Assembly: GCF_013004065.1 (NCBI RefSeq)
Contig: NZ_CP053084.1
Coordinates: forward strand, 806,001 to 870,000
Source: Limnobacter sp. SAORIC-580
Lineage (GTDB): Bacteria; Pseudomonadota; Gammaproteobacteria; Burkholderiales; Burkholderiaceae_B
Direction of reading: 5' to 3'
DNA length: 64,000 bases
Part shown: positions 5,147-32,835 of the stretch, piece after piece
How positions within the stretch are numbered: the stretch's first letter is position 1
Layout: each line of letters starts with the position of its first letter
Translations under genes and position numbers: made by a program
Notes under the pieces: model-generated
Told to the model about the DNA's origin: nothing
What the model saw: only the letters and a program-made list of their open reading frames with translations
Databases searched by the model: none

Positions 5147-7551
5147 TCAAGTCTTTCGCCGATCGTTTGATCGCTCAAATTATTCGCGCTGAAGAGTGGC
5201 TATTTGCCAATCCCAAGATTGTGCTGGGCATGATTTTGCTGGTCACCTTGGGTTTTGCCGCAGCCATTCCGCAACTGAAGGTGTATTCCGATTTTTCGGA
5301 CTTGTTACCCCAAAATCACCCCTACATCAAAACTTACAACCAACTGAAAGAAAACTTCGGTGGCGCCAACATGGTGGTGATGGCGGTGGAGGTGAAAGAG
5401 GGCACCATTTTTAACAACGACACCTTGAAGTTGATTGAAAAAGCGACTCAAGGTGTGGACAACCTGCCCAGTGTGAACCACAACCTGGTCAGCAGCCTGA
5501 CGCACCGTTCTTCTCGAAAAATTTATCTGGATGAAACCGGCGCCTTTCTTTCCGACACGTTTTACGACAGCAATAACGGTGAGTTAAGTGAAGCCCAACT
5601 GACGCAGCTGCAGAAAGACGTGACCGCGAACCCCACCATTTACGGTTTGCTGGTGTCGCCTGATATGAAGGCTGCCCTGATCAAGGCGCAGTTAAACGAA
5701 GGTGATATTGATTACGAAAAAACATTCGGTGCGCTGATGCAACTGCGCAGCGAGTTGACGGACGACAAACATAATTTGTACACCACAGGTAACCCTGTAC
5801 TAACCGGTTGGGTTTACACCTATCTGGATCAATTGGTGGCCATCATGGCCTACACACTGGCTTTACTCACACTATTGCTGATTGTGTATTTCCGACGTTT
5901 CTACGGCATTGCCTTGCCTTTGTTGGGAATCGCTTTGTCATCGATTTGGGGTTTGGGTTTCATGGCCATGGTGGGTATCAACCTTGAGCCATTGTCTTTG
6001 CCGATTCCTTTTCTGATCGCTGCGCGTGCCACTTCGCACGGTGTGCAGTTAGTGGTGCGCTACTACGAAGAACTGGCCATTGTAAAGAATGGAAAGAAGG
6101 CGGCACGCAATGCGCTGGAAGCACTTTTCCGCCCAGGTTCACTGGCGATTATTGTGGATGCCTTGGGTATTGCCGTGCTGGTGCTGGGTGCTGCCCCGTT
6201 CAATTACAAGCTTGGTATCGCAGCCGGCTTCTGGGGCTTCTCGGTCATTTTCACAGTGCACTTCATGGTGCCACTTGCGCTGACCATTCTTCCCCAGCCC
6301 AAAAATACCAAAAACGAAAACCAGGGTATTCGTGATGCGCTGGGCAGTATCACCAGCAAAACCGTGGCGCGTTTCAATGGTGCACTCACTGTGTTGATCG
6401 CCACCGTGGCATTTTCAGCAGCGGGTTTGTATTACGTGAAAGACGTGCAAATGGGTGAATCTGAACCAGGCTCGCCTATTCTGAACCGTGATCACGACTA
6501 CAACCTGGGCACCAAAGCGATCAATGATTTGTTCCCAGGTTCGGAGGAATTGCATGTGCTGGCGCGCACGGCAGAGAAGGGTGGTATCAAGCGCCCTGAA
6601 GTGATGGCAGCGATTGAAAAGTTTCAGGCACACATGCTAAGCGACCCTGAGCTTGGTGGCACCAAAGCCATCCCGGGCGTGGTTCGAGTGGTGAACCGAT
6701 TGTTGCACAACGATGATCCCCGCTGGGCGCAGTTGCCCGACAACGAAGCTGAGGTGGGCGGATTGATGTTCGCCTACCAGGTGTCAAGCCCGATTCCCGG
6801 TGCGCTGAAAGAGTTTGTTACGCCCGACGAAAACGAAGCCAATATGGTTTTTTACTACAAAGACCACAAGGCCAGCACCATCAACCGCATTGTGGCTTTG
6901 GCTGAAGAAGGCAAGCGCATTGCTGAAGCCGAAGTACCTGGACTGACGATTGAACTGGGTGGCGGCATCATTGGCGTGACAGCCGCAGCCAACCAGGCTT
7001 TGCACACCGACCACATGATCATTATTCCCGCTGTGATGATCATGGCCTTCACCTTGGTGATGGTGTATTACCGCTCAGTTCATGCTGGCTGGTTAATGAT
7101 TATGCCAATGCTGTTTGCCACGCTAATGACCTACGCCTACATGGGTGCATTTGGTATCGGCATCAGTGTGAACACCGTGCCAGTGATCGCAGTGGGTGTA
7201 GGTGTCGGTATCGACTATGCCGTGTACTTCATGGACCGCATTCGCGAAGAAATGCATGTCGTCAAAAATATCAAGCAAGCCGTGATCAATGCCGTGGCAT
7301 CCACAGGTTATGCCGTCAGCTTCACTGCCGCCACGCTGATCGCAGGTGTGGTGTTGTGGATTTTCATGTCTGATCTCCGATTCCAGTCTGACGCCGCTGT
7401 GCTGCTGAGTTTCATGCTGATTGTGAATGCCATCGCCGCCATGTTGATTGTGCCGGCTTGGTGTGTCGTATTCAAACCGAGGTTTGTGATGGGTGAAGTG
7501 CGACAAGAGAAAGCACAAGCCGCTGATTTGAAACTGGCGAAAGCCGCCTGA
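5143..7551 (+). CDS. RND/MMPL superfamily transporter
   Basis: The protein has 802 residues in the two-fold RND layout: one membrane segment near residues 25-47, a large periplasmic domain, a bundle of five segments at about 230-400, another segment near 415, a second periplasmic domain (about 440-625), and a final bundle to about 780. The motif GVGVGIDYAVYFMDR is typical of MMPL/HpnN-like members. Such proteins move lipids or hydrophobic molecules from the inner membrane or periplasm. The N-terminus overlaps the BNR lipoprotein by 4 nt, and DUF1302 and DUF1329 genes follow. Direction and substrate cannot be read from the sequence. Confidence 0.85.
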   Translation: MIKSFADRLIAQIIRAEEWLFANPKIVLGMILLVTLGFAAAIPQLKVYSDFSDLLPQNHPYIKTYNQLKENFGGANMVVMAVEVKEGTIFNNDTLKLIEKATQGVDNLPSVNHNLVSSLTHRSSRKIYLDETGAFLSDTFYDSNNGELSEAQLTQLQKDVTANPTIYGLLVSPDMKAALIKAQLNEGDIDYEKTFGALMQLRSELTDDKHNLYTTGNPVLTGWVYTYLDQLVAIMAYTLALLTLLLIVYFRRFYGIALPLLGIALSSIWGLGFMAMVGINLEPLSLPIPFLIAARATSHGVQLVVRYYEELAIVKNGKKAARNALEALFRPGSLAIIVDALGIAVLVLGAAPFNYKLGIAAGFWGFSVIFTVHFMVPLALTILPQPKNTKNENQGIRDALGSITSKTVARFNGALTVLIATVAFSAAGLYYVKDVQMGESEPGSPILNRDHDYNLGTKAINDLFPGSEELHVLARTAEKGGIKRPEVMAAIEKFQAHMLSDPELGGTKAIPGVVRVVNRLLHNDDPRWAQLPDNEAEVGGLMFAYQVSSPIPGALKEFVTPDENEANMVFYYKDHKASTINRIVALAEEGKRIAEAEVPGLTIELGGGIIGVTAAANQALHTDHMIIIPAVMIMAFTLVMVYYRSVHAGWLMIMPMLFATLMTYAYMGAFGIGISVNTVPVIAVGVGVGIDYAVYFMDRIREEMHVVKNIKQAVINAVASTGYAVSFTAATLIAGVVLWIFMSDLRFQSDAAVLLSFMLIVNAIAAMLIVPAWCVVFKPRFVMGEVRQEKAQAADLKLAKAA

Positions 7552-7595
7552 AAAATTATCAAGCAGTACAACAGCAACAAAGGAGAAGGGGCAAC

Positions 7596-9518
7596 ATGAA
7601 AAAGATGAGACAAAAACCGGCCTTGCGTTCTGCGGTGTTGGCAGTAGCGGTACTCGGCGCATGGCCGTGTGTTGCAACTGCGGCAACGTTTGAAGGTGAG
7701 GATTATGAGGTGGACATGTTCTACGAAAACCACTCGGTGTATCGCGGTGAAGACAACACTGGCGAATCGGTGGGCATGGCCAAATTCAGAAATACACTTA
7801 TTGCGGAAGGTGAAAAGACAGGCAAGAACGGATGGCGTTACAACGGCACGTTCCGCGGTACCTACGATGGTGTGTATGACCTGAATAAAGACCAGTTTGG
7901 CAAATCGGCGGGTGGCCCGATTCAGCTGCAAAGTTCGATCGGCCCTGGAGGCAGCGTGCCCCACGGAGGTGGTGTGCCTTTGTTCAATGGCGCAACGTAT
8001 CCGAATAGCCCCAACGAAGGTTTCCGTGTGCTGGGCGATCGTTGGCATGGACAAAACGGTGGTGTGGCCTTTGGTGTGCCGGTGCGTCCATGCGACTACG
8101 ATTCACGTGGTTGCGTCGACTTTGGTGGTTACGGTGATTTGACGTTGAACGAGTTGCGTCACCCGGAGTTCAACAGCCGCCTCGACTTCATTCGTGAAGC
8201 GTATGCAACCAATAGCTTTGCATTGAAAGATGGAACGGATCTTTTTGTTCGCGTGGGTAAGCAGCAGGTTGTGTGGGGACGCACCGATTTGTTCCGTGTT
8301 CTTGACGTGATCAATCCAGTTGATTTTTCCCGCAACAATATTTACGACGAACTGGAAGATATTCGCATTCCCATGTGGATAGCGCAGGCGGAATGGCGCC
8401 TTGGGCCTTCGGAAACCATGCAGGATCGCAACTTGCAGGTGGTTTGGAATTTCGATAAGTTTCGCCCCAATAATCTGGGTCAGTGCGGCCAGCCCAACGT
8501 TATTTTGGATGCGGGCTGCCTATTTCGCGGTTTGAAAAACCTGTGGGACAACGGTGGTACTGTGGCCAACTTTTTGCCCGATGGTGGGGGTATGCAGACC
8601 ATTGCTGCCAACTTTGGCCCTGGTCAAATTGGCATTCGAAATGTGCATTTGCCCGACTGGAAACTGGACAACACCCAACTGGGTATCAAGTACGAAGGCA
8701 TCACTGCCAACGGCACAGGCTTTTCTCTGAATGCACTGACTTATCGTTCGCAGTTACCATCGTTGCGTGGCATTACCAGTGGCGCTGTGAACGTAGGAAC
8801 CGGTGCGCCTCAAGGCCCCGACAACACGCACTTGATCGCATTTGATTTCGTGTATCCGCGTGTGAATCTGGTGGGTGGATCACTCGACTTCCAGATTGAA
8901 GCTGCTGCAGCTGCTGTGCGCGTAGAGGCCGCATTAACCGAAGGTGAAGAGTTTGCCAACACCCTGCAGCCGCAGTTGTACTCTGAGAACAATGTGTTTC
9001 GTGCAGTGGTCGGTGTAGACCGCCCAACCTTTATCGACTGGATCAACCCACGAATTGCCACACTCATTTCTGGTCAGCTGTTTGTTCAGCACATTTTTGA
9101 CCATGAAGTAGAGCAACGCCCACTTGGCATTGCAGGAATGCCTGATTGGGAAACCAACGCAATTGGCACTTTGCTGGTGAAAGGTTTCTTGCAGAACGGC
9201 CGTGTCAGTCCAACGCTGATCATGGCACACGACTTCAAGGCAGAAGCTACCGCAATTGCGCCATCGGTTGAATGGCTTTACAGCGATAACCTTAAATTTG
9301 TGTTCGGTGCCAACTTCAAAGTGGGTGAGAACAACAAGTACCAGTTTGATGATTGCCGTTCTTGTAACCCATACCCAGGCGTAACTGGTCCACCCGGATC
9401 GATACCTGGGTCAGCAGGTTTGGGTGGATTTGAACCACTTGGCCGATTCCGCGCAGGCCCGATTGGCGCGGCATTCAAAGAAGACGATCTGTTTGTGCAG
9501 ATGCGTTACAACTTCTAA
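7596..9518 (+). CDS. DUF1302 family protein, probable outer-membrane beta-barrel
   Basis: The 640-residue protein has a signal peptide (cleavage likely after VATA, about residue 29). It is rich in aromatic residues and alternating strands, and ends in QMRYNF with terminal Phe, the usual outer-membrane barrel signature. The segment GKQQVVWGRTDLFRVLDVINP is characteristic of DUF1302. Cysteines occur in pairs (CDYDSRGC, CRSC). A GGAG ribosome site precedes the ATG. With the DUF1329 gene 18 nt downstream and the RND gene upstream, it likely forms the outer-membrane end of a transport route for a hydrophobic compound (inference). Confidence 0.8.
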   Translation: MKKMRQKPALRSAVLAVAVLGAWPCVATAATFEGEDYEVDMFYENHSVYRGEDNTGESVGMAKFRNTLIAEGEKTGKNGWRYNGTFRGTYDGVYDLNKDQFGKSAGGPIQLQSSIGPGGSVPHGGGVPLFNGATYPNSPNEGFRVLGDRWHGQNGGVAFGVPVRPCDYDSRGCVDFGGYGDLTLNELRHPEFNSRLDFIREAYATNSFALKDGTDLFVRVGKQQVVWGRTDLFRVLDVINPVDFSRNNIYDELEDIRIPMWIAQAEWRLGPSETMQDRNLQVVWNFDKFRPNNLGQCGQPNVILDAGCLFRGLKNLWDNGGTVANFLPDGGGMQTIAANFGPGQIGIRNVHLPDWKLDNTQLGIKYEGITANGTGFSLNALTYRSQLPSLRGITSGAVNVGTGAPQGPDNTHLIAFDFVYPRVNLVGGSLDFQIEAAAAAVRVEAALTEGEEFANTLQPQLYSENNVFRAVVGVDRPTFIDWINPRIATLISGQLFVQHIFDHEVEQRPLGIAGMPDWETNAIGTLLVKGFLQNGRVSPTLIMAHDFKAEATAIAPSVEWLYSDNLKFVFGANFKVGENNKYQFDDCRSCNPYPGVTGPPGSIPGSAGLGGFEPLGRFRAGPIGAAFKEDDLFVQMRYNF

Positions 9519-9536
9519 TCAGACAGGAGACACAAC

Positions 9537-10841
9537 ATGAAACTGAGAACCCTCGCAATTTCCATCGCCGCAGTGGGCACCTTGGGTACAGCCCAGGCAG
9601 CCACCGAGGCTGATTTGCAAAATTCATTCAATCCGTACAAAAGTGGTGTGCCTTCTGTGCCTGGTTTGCAACCCGGCACAGTGGTAAACAAATCGAATGT
9701 GGAGCAGTTTAAAGAGGCGCTCGACCCTGGCATGTACATGACCGTGAAGAATGGTTGGTACGACATCAAGGTTGGAAAAACAACTAGCTTTGATGTGGAC
9801 AAATTTTATGTGGAAGCTAGCCGCAAGAATATGGGCAAAACGAAGTTAGGTCCCAAGAATGGTGATTTGACAGGTTTTACTGGGGGTCGTCCATTTCTTG
9901 AAGAGCCAGATTCTAAGGATGCACGTGCGGGCGAGAAGCTTGCCTGGAATTACAAGTACGGCATCAACTGGGGCGATGGCGCCGCCATTTATCCTTTCTA
10001 CTGGAAGTTCCGTAACCTGCAAACAGCGCAGCTTGAGCGCACCATCAAGTACAACTTTCACTTTCTGAATTTCAAGCATCGTGTTCAACACTCGCCGACA
10101 CCTGAGGTGACACCGAATCCTTCAGACTTTTTCCGTGCAATTTATGTGAAAGTGCTTGAGCCTCAGGATTTGAAAGACACCCAGTTGTTGATTCAACGTT
10201 ATGACGATGATCAGAAGCTGGACGAAGCTAACTTGTACCTGGGTTTTCAGCGCCGAGTTCGTCGCCTGGCCACTGGGCAAACCACAGATTCATTTCTGGG
10301 TTCTGACCTGATGATTGAGGACTTTGAGGGTTACAACGGTCGGGTTTCTGACATGAACTGGAGTTTCAAGGGCACAAAGAACATTCTGATGCCGTTTTAC
10401 AATCACACCGAGATGAAGTTGACAGACGAGTTCAAGGAAGCCGATGGCTTCAAGTTCATCAACTTCACTGGGCAAGGGCAGTGTTTCCCCGACATCACCT
10501 GGCAGTTGCGCAAGGTGTATGTGCTGGAAGCAAAGCCTGTGAATCCTTCGCACCCCATCGGCAAACGTGTGATGCATGTGGATGCGCAAACATTCGCTGT
10601 GTCCAGAACGTTGGTGTATGACCGCAAGAATGAGTTGTGGAAAAGCTGGACGATTGGCAAGAGCCATCCTGATTTCCACCATCCTATCAACAAGGGCACA
10701 GGTGTGGCGATTGACGACAGTTTCAGCATGGTTGACGTTCAAAGCCAGCACTGCACCACAGGCCAATTCAAGGGCCTGGTTGATCCCAAGTTGACCCCAC
10801 CAGAAATGATGCGCGTGCAGTTCATGCGCGGTGGCAATTGA
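9537..10841 (+). CDS. DUF1329 family periplasmic protein (LolB-like fold expected)
   Basis: The protein has 434 residues with a clear signal peptide (MKLRTLAISIAAVGTLGTAQA). The rest matches the usual length and style of DUF1329, a family I recall as related in fold to the LolA/LolB lipoprotein carriers. Recognisable parts include AWNYKYGINWGDGAAIYPFYWKF-type mid regions and the C-terminal YVLEAKP and GKRVMHVDAQ stretches. It is the last gene of the envelope cassette; a rho-independent terminator follows. A periplasmic shuttle role between the RND transporter and the DUF1302 barrel is inference. Confidence 0.8.
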   Translation: MKLRTLAISIAAVGTLGTAQAATEADLQNSFNPYKSGVPSVPGLQPGTVVNKSNVEQFKEALDPGMYMTVKNGWYDIKVGKTTSFDVDKFYVEASRKNMGKTKLGPKNGDLTGFTGGRPFLEEPDSKDARAGEKLAWNYKYGINWGDGAAIYPFYWKFRNLQTAQLERTIKYNFHFLNFKHRVQHSPTPEVTPNPSDFFRAIYVKVLEPQDLKDTQLLIQRYDDDQKLDEANLYLGFQRRVRRLATGQTTDSFLGSDLMIEDFEGYNGRVSDMNWSFKGTKNILMPFYNHTEMKLTDEFKEADGFKFINFTGQGQCFPDITWQLRKVYVLEAKPVNPSHPIGKRVMHVDAQTFAVSRTLVYDRKNELWKSWTIGKSHPDFHHPINKGTGVAIDDSFSMVDVQSQHCTTGQFKGLVDPKLTPPEMMRVQFMRGGN

Positions 10842-10942: not shown

Positions 10943-12607
10943 TCATTCCAGCGGAATGCCTTCTTTCTTCAAACGGTAAGCCAGTTGCGGGCGGGTAATG
11001 CCCAACACACGTGCAGCCTGCGACAGGTTACCCTTGGCCTGTTTCAATGCGGTTTGCATCAGACGGCGCTCCAAGGTGTCTAGCCCCACATTCTTGGTTA
11101 AAATTTCATTGCACAAGTCATCAATAGGGCGCGTTTCAACTGGCGCCAACTCGCCTTGCGCATTAAGCTGCGATTTTTCTTTGCAGGGCTCGATGCGGTC
11201 GTCAAACAAGTGGCAGGCCTCCACATACCCACCGTCGGGTGCCAGCACCACGGCGCGCTCAATCAGGTTTTCCAATTCGCGAATATTGCCGGGCCATTCA
11301 TAGCTCATCACCTCTTGCATGGCTTTGTCGGTCAGCCCTTGCAGCTTCTTGTTGTAGCTTGCGCAGTACTTGGTCATGAAGCGGTTGATCAGTGGCGAAA
11401 TGTCCGCTTGGCGTTCCCGCAGGGGGGGAATTTTGATGGGGAAGGTGTTGAGGCGGTAGTACAAATCAATACGGAATTTGTTTTCGCGTATGGCTTGTTG
11501 CAGCTCCACATTGGTGGCAGCGACAATTCGTACATTTACCTTTTGTACCCGTTCAGAGCCCAACCTTTCGAATTCACCAGTTTGTAGCACGCGCAGTAAT
11601 TTCACCTGGGTTGACAAGGGCAGGTCGCCTACTTCATCAAGAAACAGGGTGCCGTGGTCGGCACGTTCGAAGCGGCCTGCGCGCGGGGTGTGTGCACCCG
11701 TGTAAGCGCCTTTTTCCACACCAAACAACTCTGCTTCAATCAGTTCATGCGGAATGGCCGCGCAGTTTACGGCCAGAAATGGACCTTTGGCGCGCGGGCT
11801 GTTGTCGTGTAACCAGCGGGCAAACATTTCCTTGCCAACGCCGGTTTCGCCCAGCAGCAATACGGTGATGCTGCCCTGTGCTGCACGCTGCAGCAATTCG
11901 AATGCATTCATAAAGGCAGGAGATACGCCCACCAAATCGTCATTGCTGCGTCGGCGAACCAGGGCCGTATCCAGCTTCTCTGCACCCATGTGGTATTCAA
12001 TCAATTCTTCGGCAAAGGCCTGTGCCTTGAAATACTCCTCGTAGTCGGGGTCGTTCCAGGCTTCAGCACTTTGGCCGATGATCAGGCACTGTGAATCGCC
12101 CTGGCTCATGCATTCCATCTCTCGAAACAGCACCAGCTTGCCCATGAAGGCGCTGGTGTAACCCGACGCGTAACCAATCATGGTCCAGCAGGCAGGTTCA
12201 TCGCCTTGGCCATAGTCGGCCACATGCGCTTCGTCTTCCCACGAGTTCTTCCATACAAATTCACCGTAGAAGTGTTTGGTTGGCAGATTAATTTCCATGC
12301 TGAGCTTTTCAACCTGCACCATGCCCTCCAGCGTGTGCAATTGTGGTCCCAGCATGAAGGCTTCCTCGACAGAGCTTCCGGCGCGCCTGTGCTTCAGGGC
12401 CACCTGACCATCGCGGATACCCGAGGCAAAGCCGAGCCGAACCAGCAGGCCGCGCGCGCGTTTTAGGCCCAGGGTTTCAAACAATTCCTTGCGCAGCGCG
12501 CCCAGTGCGCGGGCATGCATCAATAGCATGCGTTGCTCGTCCAGCCAGATATGGCCGGATGGCAGATTGAATTTCAACAGGGATTGCAGGTCGGTCACAG
12601 TATTCAT
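10943..12607 (-). CDS. dmpR: Sigma-54-dependent phenol-responsive activator, DmpR/XylR family
   Basis: The protein has 554 residues in three parts. An N-terminal effector-sensing region including the V4R domain occupies about residues 1-190. A linker (EEYFKAQAFAEELIEYH) follows. The AAA+ domain has Walker A GETGVGKE at 253-260 and the sigma-54 contact loop GAYTGA at 300-305. The C-terminal Fis-type helix-turn-helix is LSQAARVLGITRPQLAYRLK. It is expected to bind phenols directly and drive the sigma-54 promoter upstream of dmpK. It lies downstream of dmpB on the same strand but behind a terminator, so it probably has its own promoter in 12608-12670. Confidence 0.93.
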   Translation of the reverse strand: MNTVTDLQSLLKFNLPSGHIWLDEQRMLLMHARALGALRKELFETLGLKRARGLLVRLGFASGIRDGQVALKHRRAGSSVEEAFMLGPQLHTLEGMVQVEKLSMEINLPTKHFYGEFVWKNSWEDEAHVADYGQGDEPACWTMIGYASGYTSAFMGKLVLFREMECMSQGDSQCLIIGQSAEAWNDPDYEEYFKAQAFAEELIEYHMGAEKLDTALVRRRSNDDLVGVSPAFMNAFELLQRAAQGSITVLLLGETGVGKEMFARWLHDNSPRAKGPFLAVNCAAIPHELIEAELFGVEKGAYTGAHTPRAGRFERADHGTLFLDEVGDLPLSTQVKLLRVLQTGEFERLGSERVQKVNVRIVAATNVELQQAIRENKFRIDLYYRLNTFPIKIPPLRERQADISPLINRFMTKYCASYNKKLQGLTDKAMQEVMSYEWPGNIRELENLIERAVVLAPDGGYVEACHLFDDRIEPCKEKSQLNAQGELAPVETRPIDDLCNEILTKNVGLDTLERRLMQTALKQAKGNLSQAARVLGITRPQLAYRLKKEGIPLE

Positions 12608-12671
12608 GTCTCCAATGTGCCTTTGGCTTTTTTCTTTTGATTATGCCTTGTTTTTCAGCCAAACAATGTAA

Positions 12672-12709
12672 AAAAGCCCAAGCGGGTTGACTACCCCGTT
12701 TGGGCTTTT
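12672..12709 (-). terminator. Terminator at the end of the dmpKLMNOPQB operon
   Basis: An inverted repeat (AAAAGCCCAAGCGGG with CCCCGTTTGGGCTTTT, loop about 7) lies between the dmpB stop and the dmpR start. A/T runs on both sides allow function on either strand. It should insulate dmpR from strong phenol-induced transcription. Confidence 0.85.
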
Positions 12710-12748
12710 CAAGGCCGCAAGAACGGCCCACCGAAAGCAGTCTGTTGC

Positions 12749-13684
12749 TTAGGTGAATACGCCCAAAAAGTTCTCGTTGAGCTTTCTGTCATGGTAGAAA
12801 ATCGCCCGGCCAAGATCGTCGCTTGTCCAGGTAATTATTGGCTTGTCCGGGTAGTGGATGTAACCTCCCGCAAACACCTCGTTGCGGTTGCCCGAGGGGT
12901 CGAAGAAGTAAATCGTCTCACCACGGGTAATACCATGGCGTGTGGGCCCAAGATCGAGTGACACTTTCTTTTTGGAAATGATGTCGGCTGCGCGAAGTAC
13001 CTCGCCCCAGTTGTCCAGAATAAACGAGGCATGGTGAAACGCCCCTTTCATGGGCTGTCGAATGAAGGCCACATCGTGCGGCTTGGTGGAACAACTCAAG
13101 AATACGCTGATGCGGAAGTCGTGGTTGTCCTCAGCCACTACTTGTTCAGTGATGTCGAAGCCTAGTACCTCTGTGAACAGTTTTACCACGCCATCCAGGT
13201 CATCGCCGTACAGCAGGCAATGGTCAAAGCGGGAGGGGCCCATGCCCTTCAGGTCATCTGGCCAGGGGTCAGGGTTCACCAGAGGCAGGCAGTTACCCAC
13301 TTTGTTTTTCTCGGCCAACAATTCCATCGTGTGGCCAGTGGTTGTGGTGAAGCGGAAGCGTTCACCAGTTTCCAGATGCTCGCCAGCAGGTATCCAGCAG
13401 CAGTCGGTGGCAAGGCCACTTTCTTCAACCTTTTTGGACAAATCTTTCAGAGTTTGAATGCTGTCCACGCGCCAGCCCATATAGTCCATACCGGCAGCGT
13501 CGGCCTCACGCAGCACCACACTGTGGTGATCGTGTTCATCCCATGCTTTCAGATACACGCGACCTTGCTTGTCGCGCCCGGTTTCCAGCAGGCCCAGCAC
13601 ATCGGTGTAGTGCTTCACGGCTGGTTCCAAATCCAGCACCCGAAGCGCCACGTGGCTTGGCCTTAATACGCCTGTCATTGCCAT
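12749..13684 (-). CDS. dmpB: Catechol 2,3-dioxygenase (extradiol, metapyrocatechase type)
   Basis: The protein has 311 residues in two vicinal-oxygen-chelate modules. Aligning by eye with XylE gives the iron ligands His155 (SRFDHCLL), His218 (GAFHHASF) and Glu269 (GNRNEVF), matching His153, His214 and Glu265. The Fe(II) enzyme opens catechol between C2 and C3 to yellow 2-hydroxymuconate semialdehyde. AAGGAG precedes the chosen ATG; a second ATG two codons later is possible. It is the last gene of the minus operon, directly behind the ferredoxin dmpQ, which in the xylT precedent reactivates this enzyme's iron. Confidence 0.95.
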
Positions 13685-26250: not shown

Positions 26251-27420
26251 ATGGATTTTTCCCTGACCCCTGCATTGAAATCGCTTCAAGATGAGGTGAG
26301 AACTTTCATTGCCGAACAGATCATTCCTCTGGAGAAAGACCCACGTCAAACCGCGCACGGACCTTCTGAGGGACTGCGCGAGGAATTGGTGAGTTTGGCC
26401 CGCAAGGCAGGTTTGTTGACTCCGCATGCGTCCAAAGAACTGGGTGGGCGCGGCTGGAGCCACATTGAAAAAGCAATTGCATTTGAAGAGGCTGGTTACT
26501 CCACCTTGGGGCCCACGGCCATGAATATTCATGCGCCCGATGAAGGCAATATTCACTTGCTGGAAGTGGTGGCTACACCTGAACAAAAAGAACGCTGGCT
26601 CAAACCCATGGTGCAGGGAAAAATTCGTTCGTGTTTCGCCATGACTGAGCCCGCGCCCGGCGCTGGTGCTGACCCTTCGATGATGCAAACCACCGCAGTG
26701 AAAGATGGCGACCACTATGTGATCAACGGTGACAAGTGGTTTATTACCGGCGCGGAAGGGGCAAGCTTTGCCATCATCATGGCGAAGATGGAAGACGGCA
26801 CAGCCACCATGTTTTTAAGTGACATGAATGCCCCCGGGATTGAGTATGTGCGCACCATGGATGCAATGGACGCCTGTTTTACCGGTGGGCATGGCGTGTT
26901 GAAGTTCAACAATTTGCGTGTGCATGAAAGCAGTGTATTGGGTGAAATTGGCAAGGGGTTTCGATATGCGCAAGTGCGCCTTGCACCGGCCCGTTTAACC
27001 CATTGCATGCGCTGGCTGGGCCAGGCACGTCGCACACACGACATTGCATTGAACTACGCCCGCAAACGGCAGGCCTTTGGTGTGCAGTTGGGTGCGCATG
27101 AAGGCGTCAGTTTTATGTTGGCTGACAATGAAATGGATTTGCATACGGCGCGTTTGCACATTTGGCACACCGCCTGGATGCTGGACCAAGGCGAGCGATG
27201 TAATTTTGAATCGAGCCGTGCGAAGGTGGTGTGTTCAGAAGCCGAGTGGCGGGTCGTGGATCGCAGCGTGCAAATTCTGGGTGGGCAGGGCGTCACAGGT
27301 GAAACCATCGTAAGCCGCATTTTTACCGACATGCGCGCATTTCGAATTTACGATGGCCCCAGTGAAGTGCACCGCTTCAGCATGGGTAAAAAACTGATTG
27401 CAGGCCTGGACAAAAAATAA
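26251..27420 (+). CDS. Acyl-CoA dehydrogenase family protein (LvaC-like)
   Basis: The 389-residue flavoprotein has the usual N-terminal helical, middle beta (CFAMTEPAPGAGADPSMMQT) and C-terminal helical domains, with RIYDGPSEVHRFSMGKKLI near the end. In the P. putida levulinate pathway, the neighbour-defined homologue LvaC acts on 4-phosphoacyl-CoA, removing phosphate to give the enoyl-CoA rather than performing a net oxidation. SDR, APH-kinase and DUF6285 genes follow, the same set as lvaABCD. The start MDFSLTP follows GGAG. A conventional acyl-CoA dehydrogenase remains the alternative. Confidence 0.85.
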   Translation: MDFSLTPALKSLQDEVRTFIAEQIIPLEKDPRQTAHGPSEGLREELVSLARKAGLLTPHASKELGGRGWSHIEKAIAFEEAGYSTLGPTAMNIHAPDEGNIHLLEVVATPEQKERWLKPMVQGKIRSCFAMTEPAPGAGADPSMMQTTAVKDGDHYVINGDKWFITGAEGASFAIIMAKMEDGTATMFLSDMNAPGIEYVRTMDAMDACFTGGHGVLKFNNLRVHESSVLGEIGKGFRYAQVRLAPARLTHCMRWLGQARRTHDIALNYARKRQAFGVQLGAHEGVSFMLADNEMDLHTARLHIWHTAWMLDQGERCNFESSRAKVVCSEAEWRVVDRSVQILGGQGVTGETIVSRIFTDMRAFRIYDGPSEVHRFSMGKKLIAGLDKK

Positions 27421-27429
27421 GGAAAAACC

Positions 27430-28203
27430 ATGAGCAACAATGATCTGTTTTCCATGCAAGGCAAATTGGTGCTGGTGACTGGTGCTTCGAGTGGCTTGGG
27501 AAAACACTTTGCACAGGTGCTTGCCGGTGCAGGGGCAACCGTGTTGTTGAGTGCGCGCAACGTTGAAAAACTGCAGCAAGTGTTGGATCAAATTCAGGCA
27601 GCCGGTGGCAAAGCGTATGCGGTGGCCATGGATGTCAGCAAATCGTCTTCAGTGAACACAGCCATGGCGAATATTGCTCAACAACATGGTGTGCCCGATG
27701 TGTTGATCAACAATGCCGGCCAGTCGATTGCCAAACCCATGTTGGAGCAAACCGAAGACGATTGGGACCAAATACTGGATACAAACCTGAAAGGTTGCTG
27801 GCTGGTGGGCACTGAATTTGCGCGCGCCTTGGCTGCTGCGGGTAAACCGGGGGCGATTGTGAACATTGCATCCATTTTGGGTGAGCGCGTGGGCGGTGCG
27901 GTGGGGCCGTATGCCATTTCAAAGGCCGGGTTGGTGCAGGCCACCAAGGCGATGGCGCTGGAACTGGCCCGTTACCATATTCGCGTAAACGCCATTTTGC
28001 CTGGCTATGTGGCCACAGAGATGAATAGCGAGTTTCTGGCCAGCGAACTGGGCGACAAATTGCGCAAACGAATTCCGACACGGCAGTTTTGTGAGCTCAG
28101 CGATTTGACTGGGCCGCTATTGCTGCTGGCCTCGAATGCAGGGGCGGGGATGACTGGCGCTTGCGTTGCAGTGGACCGCGGGCATTTGGTCAGCGCTTTG
28201 TAG
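27430..28203 (+). CDS. Short-chain dehydrogenase/reductase (LvaD-like)
   Basis: The product has 257 residues with the Rossmann motif TGASSGLGKHF and the catalytic Ser...Tyr-x3-Lys (NIASILGE and GPYAISKAG). It is a classical NAD(P)-dependent SDR. By analogy with LvaD, it could reduce a 4-oxoacyl-CoA to the 4-hydroxyacyl-CoA that the downstream kinase then phosphorylates (inference from context). It lies 9 nt after the dehydrogenase gene and 11 nt before the kinase. Confidence 0.88.
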   Translation: MSNNDLFSMQGKLVLVTGASSGLGKHFAQVLAGAGATVLLSARNVEKLQQVLDQIQAAGGKAYAVAMDVSKSSSVNTAMANIAQQHGVPDVLINNAGQSIAKPMLEQTEDDWDQILDTNLKGCWLVGTEFARALAAAGKPGAIVNIASILGERVGGAVGPYAISKAGLVQATKAMALELARYHIRVNAILPGYVATEMNSEFLASELGDKLRKRIPTRQFCELSDLTGPLLLLASNAGAGMTGACVAVDRGHLVSAL

Positions 28204-28214
28204 GGCGCCATGCA

Positions 28215-29243
28215 ATGAACGATACTCAAAAAAAGTCTCTGGAAAAATATTTGACGCAGGCATTGCTCGCAGACAGGGTTGAAATCTTGCAAGCAGCATT
28301 GCTTTCCGGTGGTGCCGTACAAGAAAACTGGGCACTGGATTTGCAGGTCACTGGTGGTGTTCATGGAAGTACTCAAGGTGGCCGATTGAACACTGTATTG
28401 CGTTGCGATTCACCCACTGCAGGTGTGGCCATCAGCCACGGTCGTGCGCAGGAATTCGCTTTGTTGCAAACCGTGTTCAATGCAGGTGTAACCGTACCGC
28501 AACCCTTGTGTTTGTGCACCGACACTTCCGTGTTTGGGCGCCCGTTTTTTGTGATGCGCAGAATAGGCGGCACAGCGGCTGGCCATGTGCTGGTGAAGAA
28601 CACCACTTACGCACCCGATCGTGTTGAACTGGCTAATCGCTTGGGTAGGGAATTGGCGCGTATCCATTCGATCAGGCCACCCCAGAAAGCGCTTGATTTT
28701 TTGCACACTTACGCTGAATCGCCCGCGCAGTATCGGATCAATACCCATCGCGAGTTTCTGGATCAACACCACACCGCTTACCCGGCACTGGAATGGGGTT
28801 TGCGCTGGCTTGAGCGCCACGCGCCAGCACGCGACTTGATTACACTGGCTCATGGCGATTTTCGCACCGGCAACTACATGGTGGATGAACATGGGCTGAC
28901 CGGTATTCTGGACTGGGAGTTTGCAGGTTGGAGCGATCCGCTGGAGGACGTTGGCTGGTTTTGTGCGAAATGCTGGCGCTTTGGGCAAGACGATTTACCG
29001 GCAGGCGGCATTGGTCTGCGCGAACATTTTTACCACGGTTATGAGGTCGAATCTGGTCGCACGATTGATCGAGATCAAATTCATTATTGGGAAGTGATGG
29101 CCCATGTGCGTTGGGCGGTGGTGGCCATTGAGCAGGCACAACGCTTTTGTTCCGGGCAAGAAAACTCCCTGTTGCTGGCTTTGACTGGCCACATTGTGCC
29201 GGAGCTGGAATGGGAAATTTTGAACATGACGGAGCACAACTGA
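28215..29243 (+). CDS. APH-family phosphotransferase (LvaA / ACAD10-11 kinase-like)
   Basis: The 342-residue kinase-fold protein has the Brenner motif LAHGDFRTGNYM and the metal-binding ILDWEFAGWSDPLEDVGWFC. This subgroup is annotated as aminoglycoside phosphotransferase but is found with acyl-CoA dehydrogenases. In P. putida, LvaA with LvaB phosphorylates 4-hydroxyvaleryl-CoA; in vertebrate ACAD10/11 the same kinase domain is fused to the dehydrogenase. The chosen ATG at 28215 lies just after the SDR stop; the open frame upstream overlaps the SDR gene. Its stop overlaps the next ATG (TGATG). Confidence 0.85.
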   Translation: MNDTQKKSLEKYLTQALLADRVEILQAALLSGGAVQENWALDLQVTGGVHGSTQGGRLNTVLRCDSPTAGVAISHGRAQEFALLQTVFNAGVTVPQPLCLCTDTSVFGRPFFVMRRIGGTAAGHVLVKNTTYAPDRVELANRLGRELARIHSIRPPQKALDFLHTYAESPAQYRINTHREFLDQHHTAYPALEWGLRWLERHAPARDLITLAHGDFRTGNYMVDEHGLTGILDWEFAGWSDPLEDVGWFCAKCWRFGQDDLPAGGIGLREHFYHGYEVESGRTIDRDQIHYWEVMAHVRWAVVAIEQAQRFCSGQENSLLLALTGHIVPELEWEILNMTEHN

Positions 29244-29617
29244 TGCGTGAACAACCCACTGGTGAATTGCTTTTGCAGTGCGCGCGCGAGCTGCTTAAGA
29301 GCAAAGTGTTGCCTATGTTGCAGGGTGATGCCAAGCGAGATGTGTTGATGGTGATGAATGCCATGTCGATTGCGCAGCGTGAGTTGCAGCAAGGCGCCGC
29401 ACTTGAGGAAGAAGAGCAACGCGGATTGGCCGAAGTATTAGGTGAACCTGTATTCGATGTGGCCCGGGCAAACCGTGTATTGGCGGCCCGCATTCGTGCT
29501 GGTGTTGCAGACCCTCACAACCCAGAGCGTACTGAAGTACTGAGCCACTTGCGTGTTGTGGGTAAAAACCGTTTGCTGGCCAGCAACCCCAAAATACTGA
29601 CGAGCCACAAAGTATGA
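29243..29617 (+). CDS. DUF6285 small protein (LvaB-like kinase partner)
   Basis: The product has 124 residues, mostly helical and charged, with no catalytic motif. It begins MREQPTGELLLQCARELL. DUF6285 proteins occur next to this kinase type; the P. putida homologue LvaB is needed for LvaA activity. Stop-start overlap with the kinase gene (TGATG) suggests stoichiometric coupled synthesis. An upstream in-frame ATG exists inside the kinase gene but would create a long overlap. Family assignment is by neighbourhood and general pattern. Confidence 0.75.
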   Translation: MREQPTGELLLQCARELLKSKVLPMLQGDAKRDVLMVMNAMSIAQRELQQGAALEEEEQRGLAEVLGEPVFDVARANRVLAARIRAGVADPHNPERTEVLSHLRVVGKNRLLASNPKILTSHKV

Positions 29618-30288
29618 GCACCTTGGTGTTGATGCGACATGGTCAGGCCTCGTTTGGGGCCGCGCGTTACGATGCTTTGTCGGAACTGGGACAAGCCCAG
29701 GCGCGAGCCACCGGGCTGTGGATGCGCAATCAAGGCGTACATCCAAATGCGGTGTTGCACGGACCCCGACAAAGGCAGGCTGACACCGCAAACTTGTTGC
29801 TCAAGGAAAGCGGGTATCTAATTTCTGGCAAACAATCTGAGGCATTGGATGAGTTTGCCGAGGGTGAAGAAATTTTCAGTGCAGCAGAGCAATTGCTTGG
29901 GCGCAGTATGGCACTCGACTCGGGTCGGTCACGCCTTGAAGTGCTGCGTGATTACGATGCAACCTGCCGGGCCTGGGCCAATGGAGACGTGCGTATCCCG
30001 GGGCGATTAAGCCTTGGCGAGTTTCGTGAACAGTTGCGCGATTGGTTAAGTTCGCACACACAGGCGCAACATGCCAACGGGCAGATTGAAGTGGTGGTCA
30101 CATCTGCCGGATCTATTGCAGCACTGGTGTGCGAAGTGATGGGCTTGCCCGATGCAAGCTGGTACAGCCTGCTGCGTGTAATTCGAAATGCATCGCTCAC
30201 CGAGGTACTGTATTCAAAAGGCAAAGTCAGCTTACTCAGTTTCAATGGTGTGAGTCACTTGCCACCGCAATTAAACACGTCCATGTAA
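29614..30288 (+). CDS. Histidine phosphatase superfamily protein
   Basis: The product has 224 residues with the catalytic LVLMRHGQASFG motif (Arg8, His9) and a later basic site (GPRQRQADTA). The second catalytic His is less obvious; the region VVVTSAGSIAALVCE has Ser-Ala where many members have a GH pair, so activity is uncertain. It overlaps the DUF6285 gene by 4 nt and closes the operon. In a phosphorylation-based acyl-CoA pathway a phosphatase could act in proofreading or recycling, but that is speculation. Confidence 0.82.
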   Translation: MSTLVLMRHGQASFGAARYDALSELGQAQARATGLWMRNQGVHPNAVLHGPRQRQADTANLLLKESGYLISGKQSEALDEFAEGEEIFSAAEQLLGRSMALDSGRSRLEVLRDYDATCRAWANGDVRIPGRLSLGEFREQLRDWLSSHTQAQHANGQIEVVVTSAGSIAALVCEVMGLPDASWYSLLRVIRNASLTEVLYSKGKVSLLSFNGVSHLPPQLNTSM

Positions 30289-30309: not shown

Positions 30310-30696
30310 TCAAGCAGTTTGCTTGCCTCCTGCGGCATTTCCATGGCTGACCAGTTCCCGTGCAGGGCGCACTTCAATTGAGCCATAACGGGCGGGTGGA
30401 ATTTTCTCGGCCAGTGCAATCGCTTCATTCAGGTCTTGGGCTTCCAGCATGTAAAAACCTGCGAGCTGTTCTTTGGTCTCTGCAAAGGGGCCATCAGTCG
30501 TGTGGGTCTTGCCATTTCGAACCCGCACGGTAGTGGCGGTATTGACTGGCAACAAAGGGCTACCTGTGATGAAGTGCCCCTTGTGGCTTAAATTTTCAAC
30601 GCAGGCGATGCACTCGTTGTTCAGTGCATCCCATTCCTGTTGCGACATGCTGTTCATGATGTTCTCGTCGTAATACACCAAGGCCAGATATTTCAT
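30310..30696 (-). CDS. YciI/DGPF-domain protein (ECF42 partner), downstream copy
   Basis: The product has 128 residues with the family start MKYLALVYYDE and the DGPF motif (TTDGPFAETKEQLAGFYMLEA in part). Such YciI-like proteins are the hallmark partners of ECF42 sigma factors; their biochemical role is unknown. It is paralogous to the gene just upstream (30699-31073), 2 nt away. The frame is open past 30696, but the conserved MKYL start is chosen. Confidence 0.85.
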   Translation of the reverse strand: MKYLALVYYDENIMNSMSQQEWDALNNECIACVENLSHKGHFITGSPLLPVNTATTVRVRNGKTHTTDGPFAETKEQLAGFYMLEAQDLNEAIALAEKIPPARYGSIEVRPARELVSHGNAAGGKQTA

Positions 30697-30698
30697 AT

Positions 30699-31073
30699 TC
30701 AATCTCCGTAGCGACAATCTTCGCGAAGTGATTCTTCAATCGGACGAATTTCGATCGTACCCAACCGCGCAGAGGGCCATTGCGATGCAATTCGCAAGGC
30801 CTCGTTGAAATCATGGGCTTCAATCAGAAAAATACCACCCAGTTGTTCCTTGGTTTCTACAAAGGGCCCGTCGGTTGTTACCAACCTTTGATTACGCACC
30901 CGCACCAGCACACCATGGTTGGCGCTCTGAAGTGCATGGGTGGTAATCAAGTGGCCGCTTGCTTTCAAGGATTCCACATAACTCAATGTTTCCTGCCTCA
31001 AAGCCAGCCATTCTTCATGTGGCATGGCTTTGAAGAGGGCCTCTTCCTCATGGGCAAGGCAAAGGTATTTCAT
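30699..31073 (-). CDS. YciI/DGPF-domain protein (ECF42 partner), upstream copy
   Basis: This 124-residue paralogue of the downstream gene begins MKYLCLAHEEEALF and has TTDGPFVETKEQLGGIFLIEA as its signature region. The tandem pair probably arose by duplication. It lies 13 nt after the SnoaL-like gene. Both are on the same strand as the ECF42 sigma gene and likely belong to one transcript from the motif at 31537-31563. Confidence 0.85.
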   Translation of the reverse strand: MKYLCLAHEEEALFKAMPHEEWLALRQETLSYVESLKASGHLITTHALQSANHGVLVRVRNQRLVTTDGPFVETKEQLGGIFLIEAHDFNEALRIASQWPSARLGTIEIRPIEESLREDCRYGD

Positions 31074-31086
31074 GGCAGGTTGCCTC

Positions 31087-31503
31087 TCAAGGTTGGGCAT
31101 CGAAAATGGCTTTACCGCTTTCAGGGTCGAATGGCGAAGAAAAATGCTCATGCACAATTTTCCATTCATTTTTTTCCTGACGCAGACACACGGTGGCACG
31201 CATCCAGCCAACGTTTTCATTGCCAAAGTCTTGAACCGAACCACAACGCGACAGGTAATGGCAGAAGGCCAGTTCGCCGCTGCTTTGAATGTTCAATTGA
31301 TGAATTTCAAAGATGATGCCGCCACCGCACAACTGCATGCAGTATTTCCAGTGTTCTGCGTAATTCGCTTTGCCGACGATGTGCAGCACTTTGACTGCAT
31401 CAAACGACACCACATTCTCGCTGTAGTGGCTCATGATTTTTTCCAAGTCTTCGTCGACCACCGATTGTTGCCAGCTTTCCAGCACTGCCTTGATTGCGTT
31501 CAT
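31087..31503 (-). CDS. SnoaL/NTF2-like protein of the ECF42 operon
   Basis: The product has 138 residues with the cone-shaped NTF2-like fold expected from VLESWQQSVVDEDLEKIMSH and the C-terminal WKIVHEHFSSPFD. Similar calcium/calmodulin- or YybH-type proteins have ligand-binding or isomerase roles, but no specific function can be given. AAAGGAG lies before the ATG. It is the first gene after the predicted ECF42-type promoter and precedes two DGPF proteins. Confidence 0.8.
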   Translation of the reverse strand: MNAIKAVLESWQQSVVDEDLEKIMSHYSENVVSFDAVKVLHIVGKANYAEHWKYCMQLCGGGIIFEIHQLNIQSSGELAFCHYLSRCGSVQDFGNENVGWMRATVCLRQEKNEWKIVHEHFSSPFDPESGKAIFDAQP

Positions 31504-31536
31504 GGTTTCTCCTTTAGTTGGGGGTTTCATGAATTA

Positions 31537-31563
31537 GTCGAACGGCACTTTCTGAAATCGACA
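31537..31563 (-). promoter_or_regulatory. Candidate ECF42-dependent promoter (TGTCGA-N17-CGAC)
   Basis: On the minus strand TGTCGA and CGAC are 17 nt apart, about 34 nt upstream of the SnoaL-like ATG. I recall TGTCGA (-35) and CGA-type (-10) as the reported ECF42 motif, so this would make the operon a direct target of the adjacent sigma factor. Confidence 0.6.
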
Positions 31564-31584
31564 TTGTTTGAAATTTTTTTTAAA

Positions 31585-32835
31585 TTAATTTTTCAGTCTG
31601 CCCAAGTCATCCAGACGTTGTTGTAAAAAGCGCTGCTCCGGCCCTTGTCGAGTCAGACGAAGTGCGTCTTGATAGGCATCACGGGCTTCCTTTACGTGGC
31701 CCATTCGCCTGTACAGGTCTGCGCGTGTGGCGTGGGCCAAGTGGTAGTCGTGCAGGTGGCCTTGCGCCATCAACTCGTCGACCAGCGCAAGCCCTGCCTC
31801 GGGACCGTCTCGCATTGCCACGGCCACAGCCCGGTTCAGTGCAACCACCGGCGAATGGGTGTGTTCCAGCAGGGCGTCGTAAAGGCCAACAATTTGTATC
31901 CAGTCTGTTTTCTCCGTGCTGGGGGCTTCGGCATGCACAGCACTGATTGCTGCCTGCAGCGTGTATGCGCCAAATCGGCGTGTGGCCAAGGCCTGCAACA
32001 CCAACTGGCAGCCTTCGCGGATCTGGGCCTGATTCCAGAGTGTGCGATTCTGGTCTGCCAGCAAGATCAGATCACCATTGGGTGTGCAACGTGCTGCCTG
32101 GCGGGAGTCATTCAATAACATCAAGGCAAGCAGCCCCACAGCTTCGGGTTCTGGCAACAGTTGTACCAGCAGGCGCCCAAGGCGGATAGCTTCGCTGCAG
32201 AGTTCTTTGCGAATCAATGCTTCGCCGGTCGAGGCCGAGTAGCCTTCATTGAACACCAGATAGATCACATGCAGTACGGCATGCAGACGTTCTTGAAGCT
32301 GATCGGCTTGAGGCACTTCGTAGGGAATTTTGGCATCGCGAATTTTGGTTTTGGCGCGAACAATTCGTTGCGCCATGGTGGGTGTAGTGCTTAAAAATGC
32401 GCTGGCGACTTCTTCCGTGGAAAGCCCGCACACCTCCCGCAAGGTGAGCGCCAATTGGGCTTCAGGTGACAGGCTGGGGTGACAACAGGTGAAAATCAAC
32501 CGCAAGCGATCGTCTTCAATGGTTTCGTCGGCGTAATCGGGTTCATGGTGTAGTTGCTCGGCGAGATCGTCGGCAACGTCTTCAAACGAGGTGTCGAATT
32601 TTGCACGGCGGCGGATTTGATCAATGGCTTTGAATCGGGCGGTGGACACCATCCAGGCCCTTGGGTTGGTGGGGATGCCTTCGACTTCCCACCGCTGTAA
32701 TGCAATTGAAAATGCTTCGTGCATGGCTTCTTCAGCCACATCAAAATCGCCAAGCAAGCGAATGAGGGTGGCCAGAATTCGGCGGGACTCCTGTTGGTAA
32801 AAAGTATCTAGCCAAGGTCGCAGGGCAGTTCTCAT
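31585..32835 (-). CDS. ECF42-type RNA polymerase sigma factor with C-terminal extension
   Basis: The 416-residue protein has a normal ECF part (region 2: LLGDFDVAEEAMHEAFSIAL; region 4: LALTLREVCGLSTEEVASAF) in the first ~180 residues, plus a ~230-residue C-terminal helical TPR-like extension (DUF6596). This build, with DGPF proteins next door and no anti-sigma gene, is typical of ECF42. The extension is thought to control activity in place of an anti-sigma factor. Its ATG is 29 nt from a Fur box, so iron could influence its expression. Confidence 0.9.
   Translation of the reverse strand: MRTALRPWLDTFYQQESRRILATLIRLLGDFDVAEEAMHEAFSIALQRWEVEGIPTNPRAWMVSTARFKAIDQIRRRAKFDTSFEDVADDLAEQLHHEPDYADETIEDDRLRLIFTCCHPSLSPEAQLALTLREVCGLSTEEVASAFLSTTPTMAQRIVRAKTKIRDAKIPYEVPQADQLQERLHAVLHVIYLVFNEGYSASTGEALIRKELCSEAIRLGRLLVQLLPEPEAVGLLALMLLNDSRQAARCTPNGDLILLADQNRTLWNQAQIREGCQLVLQALATRRFGAYTLQAAISAVHAEAPSTEKTDWIQIVGLYDALLEHTHSPVVALNRAVAVAMRDGPEAGLALVDELMAQGHLHDYHLAHATRADLYRRMGHVKEARDAYQDALRLTRQGPEQRFLQQRLDDLGRLKN

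Follow-up and report, generated by a model that had tools for sequence, protein, structure and literature searches.

Judged by sequence, five tightly packed genes of Limnobacter sp. SAORIC-580 form an lva-type operon, with the four genes of the pathway in C-D-A-B order and a histidine phosphatase gene as the fifth. They occupy positions 26251–30288 of the window, by which we mean the whole analysed stretch of 64,000 nucleotides (nt), positions 806001–870000 of contig NZ_CP053084.1; the host genome is a single contig of 3.3 Mb. The operon probably feeds short 4-oxo and 4-hydroxy acids into beta-oxidation and includes a phosphatase for recycling. Within this proposal the four-enzyme pathway is very likely, and the recycling role of the phosphatase is advanced tentatively. 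We infer the reactions, the substrate and the role of the phosphatase as follows. Levulinate, 4-hydroxyvalerate and their near homologues would be the substrates, a default guess based on the 69–70% identity of the dehydrogenase to LvaC of complete lva operons. Their coenzyme A (CoA) esters would be made by an acyl-CoA ligase encoded elsewhere, and a 4-oxoacyl-CoA would be reduced by the short-chain dehydrogenase/reductase (SDR). The 4-hydroxyl group would then be phosphorylated by the LvaA-type kinase together with DUF6285/LvaB, and the phosphate eliminated by the dehydrogenase-fold enzyme to leave a 2-enoyl-CoA. The histidine phosphatase might clear 4-phospho acids or 4-phosphoacyl-CoA that escape this route and give back the 4-hydroxy compound.

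The identity of the components, their pocket and catalytic residues, the gene order and the linkage of the phosphatase can be read from the DNA itself (Table 1). An earlier note on this stretch had described a very tight five-gene cluster, and the gene coordinates agree: all five genes lie on the + strand, separated by 9 nt (dehydrogenase/SDR) and 11 nt (SDR/kinase) or overlapping by 1 nt (kinase/DUF6285) and 4 nt (DUF6285/phosphatase). All five proteins exceed the Pfam cut-offs. As lva references we used the operons of a P. aeruginosa plasmid and of P. citronellolis LMG 18378 (locus L101) rather than the P. putida KT2440 sequences. The plasmid operon runs regulator, kinase, LvaB (the record's own name), dehydrogenase, SDR, acyl-CoA synthetase, DUF485 protein and acetate symporter. 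The window proteins are 69.2% (dehydrogenase), 54.9% (SDR), 50.7% (kinase) and 38.1% (LvaB) identical to those of the plasmid, and 70.5%, 53.7%, 48.7% and 32.8% identical, respectively, to those of P. citronellolis LMG 18378. These values bear out the assignment of the four proteins to the LvaC, LvaD, LvaA and LvaB types made in the earlier note. For comparison, LvaC of P. citronellolis LA18T is reported to be 78% identical to that of P. putida KT2440 (PMC6692424). We had also considered the window dehydrogenase as a clade remote from LvaC and dropped this after comparison with the LvaCs of lva operons.

Table 1. The lva-type operon, its diagnostic residues (window positions) and a second gene set of the same genome
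Feature	Position	Strand	Basis
LvaC-type acyl-CoA dehydrogenase-fold enzyme, 389 aa	26251..27420	+	Pfam; LvaC identity
Dehydrogenase R243-R254, RLAPARLTHCMR	26977..27012	+	Alignment; counterpart of ACAD11 R626, R631, H634, R637
Dehydrogenase D368	27352..27354	+	Counterpart of ACAD11 catalytic Asp D753
LvaD-type SDR, 257 aa	27430..28203	+	Pfam; motifs TGASSGLG, NNAG, YAISK
LvaA-type APH-fold kinase, 342 aa	28215..29243	+	Pfam; identity; profile assignment
Kinase catalytic loop HGDFRTGN (from residue 213)	28851..28874	+	Alignment
DUF6285/LvaB-like protein, 124 aa	29243..29617	+	Pfam; LvaB identity; structure model
TSGG-family histidine phosphatase, 224 aa	29614..30288	+	Pfam; structure model; fold search
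Phosphatase RHG motif, residues 8-10, nucleophile His9	29635..29643	+	R8 and H9 in 120/120 listed proteins
Phosphatase Ser164 replacing second catalytic His	30103..30105	+	Alignments; family listing
Second 4-hydroxyacyl-CoA set	Stretch 212000-228000 of the same genome, local 6484-9611	-	

The dehydrogenase carries the complete pocket predicted to hold a 4-phosphoacyl-CoA. In ACAD11 the 4-phosphate is contacted by R626, H634 and R637 and D753 is the catalytic aspartate; changes of pocket or catalytic residues abolish the reaction (PMC12440821). The LvaC/ACAD11-type pocket, on which the earlier note had staked its pathway, is present in the window protein (R243, R248, HCMR at 251–254 and D368, by alignment), and D368 is invariant across a 10-row dehydrogenase alignment. 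The SDR has the nucleotide-binding and YxxxK motifs of its class and is ∼54–55% identical to LvaD homologues. According to the legend of Fig. 1 in PMC11342911, ACAD10 and ACAD11 are 62% and 56% identical to LvaC, whereas the LvaC-type protein of the window is only 36% identical to the ACAD10/11-like dehydrogenase of its own genome.

The order of all five genes, together with the flanks, is conserved in two other Limnobacter contigs (L058 and L059). Pairwise ratios of nonsynonymous to synonymous substitution rates (dN/dS, NG86 method) between the window genes and these contigs are 0.03–0.04 for the dehydrogenase, 0.08–0.09 for the SDR, 0.06–0.10 for the kinase, 0.10–0.15 for DUF6285 and 0.08–0.12 for the phosphatase. 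Hence, each gene is under purifying selection (0.03–0.15 overall). A plasmid of Azoarcus sp. KH32C is annotated with the identical order C-D-A-B-phosphatase, and a metagenome-assembled Rhodocyclaceae genome (L060) has the same five genes, arranged alike. The conserved order in Limnobacter, the low dN/dS and the Azoarcus arrangement argue that the operon is more than a chance assembly. Scans for promoters and terminators were uninformative, as the site counts fell below those of shuffled sequences.

The earlier note also saw in the kinase and dehydrogenase a likeness to vertebrate ACAD10/11. The chemistry supports this likeness and the kinase does not: it is of the LvaA type and lacks the ACAD11-type arginines, and a separate ACAD10/11-like set stands elsewhere in the genome. 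We compared the distinct kinases of the fetched loci, repeats removed (36 LvaA-type and 57 ACAD11-type). The alphaC glutamate, the catalytic aspartate and asparagine, and the aspartate of the DWE motif are invariant in all 93. Two arginines separate the types. An arginine beside the alphaC glutamate (R86) and R176 are described as lying near CoA in a simulation (PMC12440821). The arginine beside the alphaC glutamate, which by our by-eye alignment count sits two positions before the published number and is identified from the paper's description, is present in 57/57 ACAD11-type and 0/36 LvaA-type kinases; the R176 equivalent is found in 57/57 and 1/36, respectively. The window kinase has neither arginine (AQEF at the alphaC glutamate site, by alignment).

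The two kinase types also differ in their neighbours. A DUF6285 gene lies within 2 kb of 34 of the 36 LvaA-type kinases and of none of the 57 ACAD11-type ones, for 50 of which at least 600 nt downstream were visible. At one of the two exceptions, an Acinetobacter locus (L133), a short LvaB-like frame under the profile cut stands at the expected place; at the other (L025) no DUF6285 was recognised in the fetched locus. LvaA-type kinases thus miss the arginines and have DUF6285 beside them, which suggests that LvaB/DUF6285 supplies CoA recognition to these kinases. The pull-down of LvaB with LvaA and the requirement of both for growth on levulinate (PMC6692424) fit such a role and do not establish it. 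The window DUF6285 protein matches PF19802 with 68 bits and is 33–38% identical to LvaB homologues; across 33 distinct DUF6285 sequences Arg46 is present in 32 and Arg85 in all. Its predicted model is all-helical (predicted local distance difference test, pLDDT, 87.6), and a fold search against the PDB gave no match at E ≤ 0.001, a result that does not establish a new fold. The pairing of one dehydrogenase family with two kinase types points to exchange of the kinase module during the evolution of these loci. An ACAD11-type kinase, with no DUF6285, comes next after many LvaC-SDR pairs of betaproteobacteria (L064–L066, L068, L069, L071–L074, L007 and others).

The phosphatase matches PF00300 with 68 bits, and its model (pLDDT 93.1) has PGAM5, PhoE and phosphoserine phosphatase as nearest folds at ∼20% identity. 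Among 120 listed proteins of its family, TSGG, the residues R8, H9, R54 and E80 are invariant. The second catalytic histidine is replaced by serine in all 118 listed TSGG proteins that have a residue there, the window protein included (two are gapped), in 11/11 and 33/33 rows of two TSGG alignments, and in 44/44 TSGG genes of a 249-genome survey (43 by script and one by eye). In the VSHD family, the other histidine phosphatase family linked to lva genes, the second histidine is kept in 11/11 alignment rows. Two GpmA-like histidine phosphatases of the same genome (L168 and L169) also retain it; a third match is short and was not judged. Two further ideas lost ground here. The invariance of the four residues weakens the case for TSGG phosphatases as decayed pseudoenzymes, and the conserved C-terminal His215 as a substitute for the lost histidine is weakened by the solved phosphatase structure 9mmh, which aligns with both the C-terminal and the GHGG-type histidine.

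These features bear on the main rival explanation, that the phosphatase acts on no pathway intermediate and instead serves the kinase as a regulatory partner, in the manner of the haloacid dehalogenase (HAD) domain of ACAD10. That domain has an incomplete catalytic motif and negligible phosphatase activity and restrains the kinase (PMC11342911). The serine throughout the TSGG family is consistent with such a partner, as is the placement of the TSGG gene at most 31 nt from the kinase gene, or overlapping it, in 9 of 20 kinase-bearing TSGG loci. However, the invariance of the four catalytic positions goes beyond a purely structural need and the VSHD family retains its second histidine, so that we regard a regulatory partner as rather unlikely. 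The recycling phosphatase is favoured by the invariant nucleophile and three other catalytic positions and by the presence of two phosphatase families in lva-type operons. It is further favoured by work on mammalian systems: a 4-phospho free acid occurs in mammalian cells, probably from hydrolysis of the CoA ester (PMC11342911), and the ACAD10/11 kinase is inactive on the free acid (PMC12440821).

A second question is which acids the operon serves. Nine AMP-binding genes were found in the genome and none of them lies inside the window, and the best genomic match to an lva-operon ligase is 33% identical. LvaF/LvaG profiles had no match in the window, and the sole match there to the LvaR profile (10943–12607) was rejected as an XylR-type regulator. 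The absence of a CoA ligase (LvaE) and of LvaR, reported in the earlier note, is therefore upheld for the window. The XylR-type sigma-54 regulator has a V4R domain and is accompanied by a glyoxalase-fold, catechol 2,3-dioxygenase-like gene (10943–13684), as in aromatic degradation clusters. The lack of LvaE, LvaF/G and LvaR nearby would suit an operon for 4-oxo or 4-hydroxy acids other than levulinate, whether longer, branched or lactone-derived. So would the Azoarcus sp. KH32C plasmid, where a tripartite ATP-independent periplasmic (TRAP) transporter precedes the five genes and an AMP-binding gene lies ∼2.7 kb beyond. On the other hand, the dehydrogenase stays close to LvaC of complete operons, the second, ACAD10/11-like set in the genome could handle other chains, and P. 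putida still grows on levulinate after loss of lvaE alone (PMC6692424). The variant pathway for other acids that the earlier note had raised is, given the LvaC identity, less supported, and we consider it doubtful.

How often a phosphatase accompanies these genes was surveyed at 90 LvaC-type loci, made up of the window locus, 9 from plasmids and 80 from genomes, these last being the best by similarity of at least 586 and not a random sample. Neighbours were counted on the same strand up to 4.5 kb away, and the linkage counts and Fisher tests ignore relatedness. An LvaA-type kinase was found at 32 loci, 31 of them with DUF6285 and 16 with a histidine phosphatase (5 TSGG and 11 VSHD). The 33 loci with an ACAD11-type kinase had DUF6285 in no case and a TSGG phosphatase in two, and the 25 loci with neither kinase had neither DUF6285 nor a phosphatase. 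Mapped onto a tree of these 90 dehydrogenases, the phosphatase state requires at least 8 changes and the kinase type 17; a phylogeny-aware test of kinase type versus phosphatase gave no significance, as well-supported branches yielded just 3 independent pairs, too few for such a test. In the plasmid-borne lva operon of Azotobacter salinestris (L009) a short scar resembling a VSHD phosphatase lies between lvaB and lvaC (8433–8912), which implies that the phosphatase gene can be lost. The kinase gene of this plasmid is duplicated further along.

From the side of the phosphatase, the TSGG family occurs in 41 of 249 genomes of the phylum and a relative of the dehydrogenase (E ≤ 1e–50) in 72, with 39 genomes having both, 2 the phosphatase alone and 33 the dehydrogenase relative alone. 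Thus, the relative is present in 39/41 TSGG genomes versus 33/208 others, kinship ignored. Such relatives are not all HCMR-bearing, as 8 of 40 fetched loci, taken from the upper part of the dehydrogenase-relative matches listed, have no HCMR frame. The co-occurrence survey proposed in the earlier note came out evenly divided: 22 of the 44 TSGG genes adjoin an LvaA- or ACAD11-type kinase or an HCMR dehydrogenase, every listed neighbour being on the same strand, and 22 stand apart. In this count 19 loci had only ∼1.5 kb of flank, all 19 of them linked, and contig ends clipped some of the remaining 25. The neighbourhood recurs in records of Deinococcus radiodurans and Streptomyces. In the Limnobacter genome itself the second set, at 218–222 kb, has an ACAD10/11-like dehydrogenase, a kinase and a TSGG phosphatase in a row, with no DUF6285. 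The idea that the phosphatase acts on some unrelated substrate, its place in the operon being an accident of gene order, could draw on the unlinked half of the TSGG genes and on the half of LvaA-type loci that have no phosphatase, but it sits poorly with the same-strand linkage of the other half, the enrichment across genomes and the recurrence in Deinococcus and Streptomyces, and we find it improbable. By these sequence comparisons the phosphatase is no local oddity, and two histidine phosphatase families occur in lva-type operons. The fifth gene of the earlier note is therefore real and not unique to this operon, given the Azoarcus plasmid, the two families and a P. citronellolis lva cluster with a histidine phosphatase reported in 2019 (PMC6692424).

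Several observations weigh against a pathway for levulinate-like acids with a recycling phosphatase. Beside the operon there is no lva-type ligase, transporter or regulator. The phosphatase is not essential, being missing within 4.5 kb from 16 of the 32 LvaA-type loci and reduced to a scar in Azotobacter, and it is not exclusive, since half of the TSGG genes lie away from such neighbours. With the second histidine lost, TSGG catalysis may also be weak. Taken jointly, the kinase and phosphatase data allow a broader speculation, which we would not call likely: LvaB would replace the CoA-contacting arginines in trans, phospho-elimination would repeatedly have recruited phosphatase-fold partners, namely the TSGG phosphatases, the distinct VSHD family of pseudomonads and Acinetobacter, and the HAD domain of ACAD10, and TSGG would be a single-histidine class devoted to 4-phospho acids.

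The lva operon type is already known, as is the phosphatase in the P. citronellolis cluster of the 2019 report, and the mammalian phospho-elimination enzymes for 4-hydroxy acids were reported in 2024–2025 (PMC11342911, PMC12440821). Our literature search, with most subscription papers outside its scope, returned nothing that describes the TSGG family, its tie to phosphorylation and elimination of 4-hydroxyacyl-CoA, or the link between arginine loss and LvaB; it likewise found nothing on point for DUF6285, for loss of the second histidine or for levulinic acid in Limnobacter. The recurrence of the phosphatase in Pseudomonadota, Deinococcus and Streptomyces draws attention to an unstudied matter, the fate of phosphorylated intermediates that fail to eliminate. 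The kinase comparison provides a residue-level prediction for why P. putida needs LvaB and ACAD10/11 need no partner; if true, replacement of the arginines by LvaB would account for the presence of LvaB beside only one of the two kinase lineages. As lva enzymes are reported to serve metabolic engineering, a repair phosphatase or a better-understood kinase complex would help there.

Beyond the operon, and convergent to it, the window has at 30310–32835 two related small proteins (30310–30717 and 30699–31244), along with another small gene and a sigma-70-like factor that carries DUF6596. These neighbours are conserved in other Limnobacter.

Compared with the lvaABCDE(FG) operon of P. putida KT2440 and its relatives, the window operon has the same kinase, LvaB, dehydrogenase and SDR. 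It differs in its order, C-D-A-B instead of A-B-C-D, in the phosphatase as a fifth gene, and in that LvaE, LvaF, LvaG and LvaR do not adjoin. P. citronellolis and the plasmid of Stutzerimonas stutzeri S116 likewise have a histidine phosphatase among their lva genes, but theirs belongs to VSHD, keeps the second histidine and is located between lvaB and lvaC; the S116 protein is 23% identical to that of the window. The assignment to VSHD and not TSGG holds for P. citronellolis LMG 18378 in particular. In the same strain a DUF6285/LvaB gene lies between the kinase and the phosphatase (6890–7267 of L101), so that the lack of an lvaB homologue stated for strain LA18T (PMC6692424) does not extend to LMG 18378. 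With ACAD10/ACAD11 the window operon shares the predicted phosphorylation of 4-hydroxyacyl-CoA followed by elimination, and the pocket residues; unlike them, its kinase and dehydrogenase are unfused, and the kinase does without the ACAD11-type arginines and has DUF6285. ACAD10 also bears a phosphatase-fold domain, of the HAD fold and thus different from the histidine phosphatase of the window. The latter resembles branch-1 histidine phosphatases such as PGAM5, PhoE and phosphoserine phosphatase in its fold and RHG motif, and is set apart from them by its low identity and by the serine in place of the second histidine.

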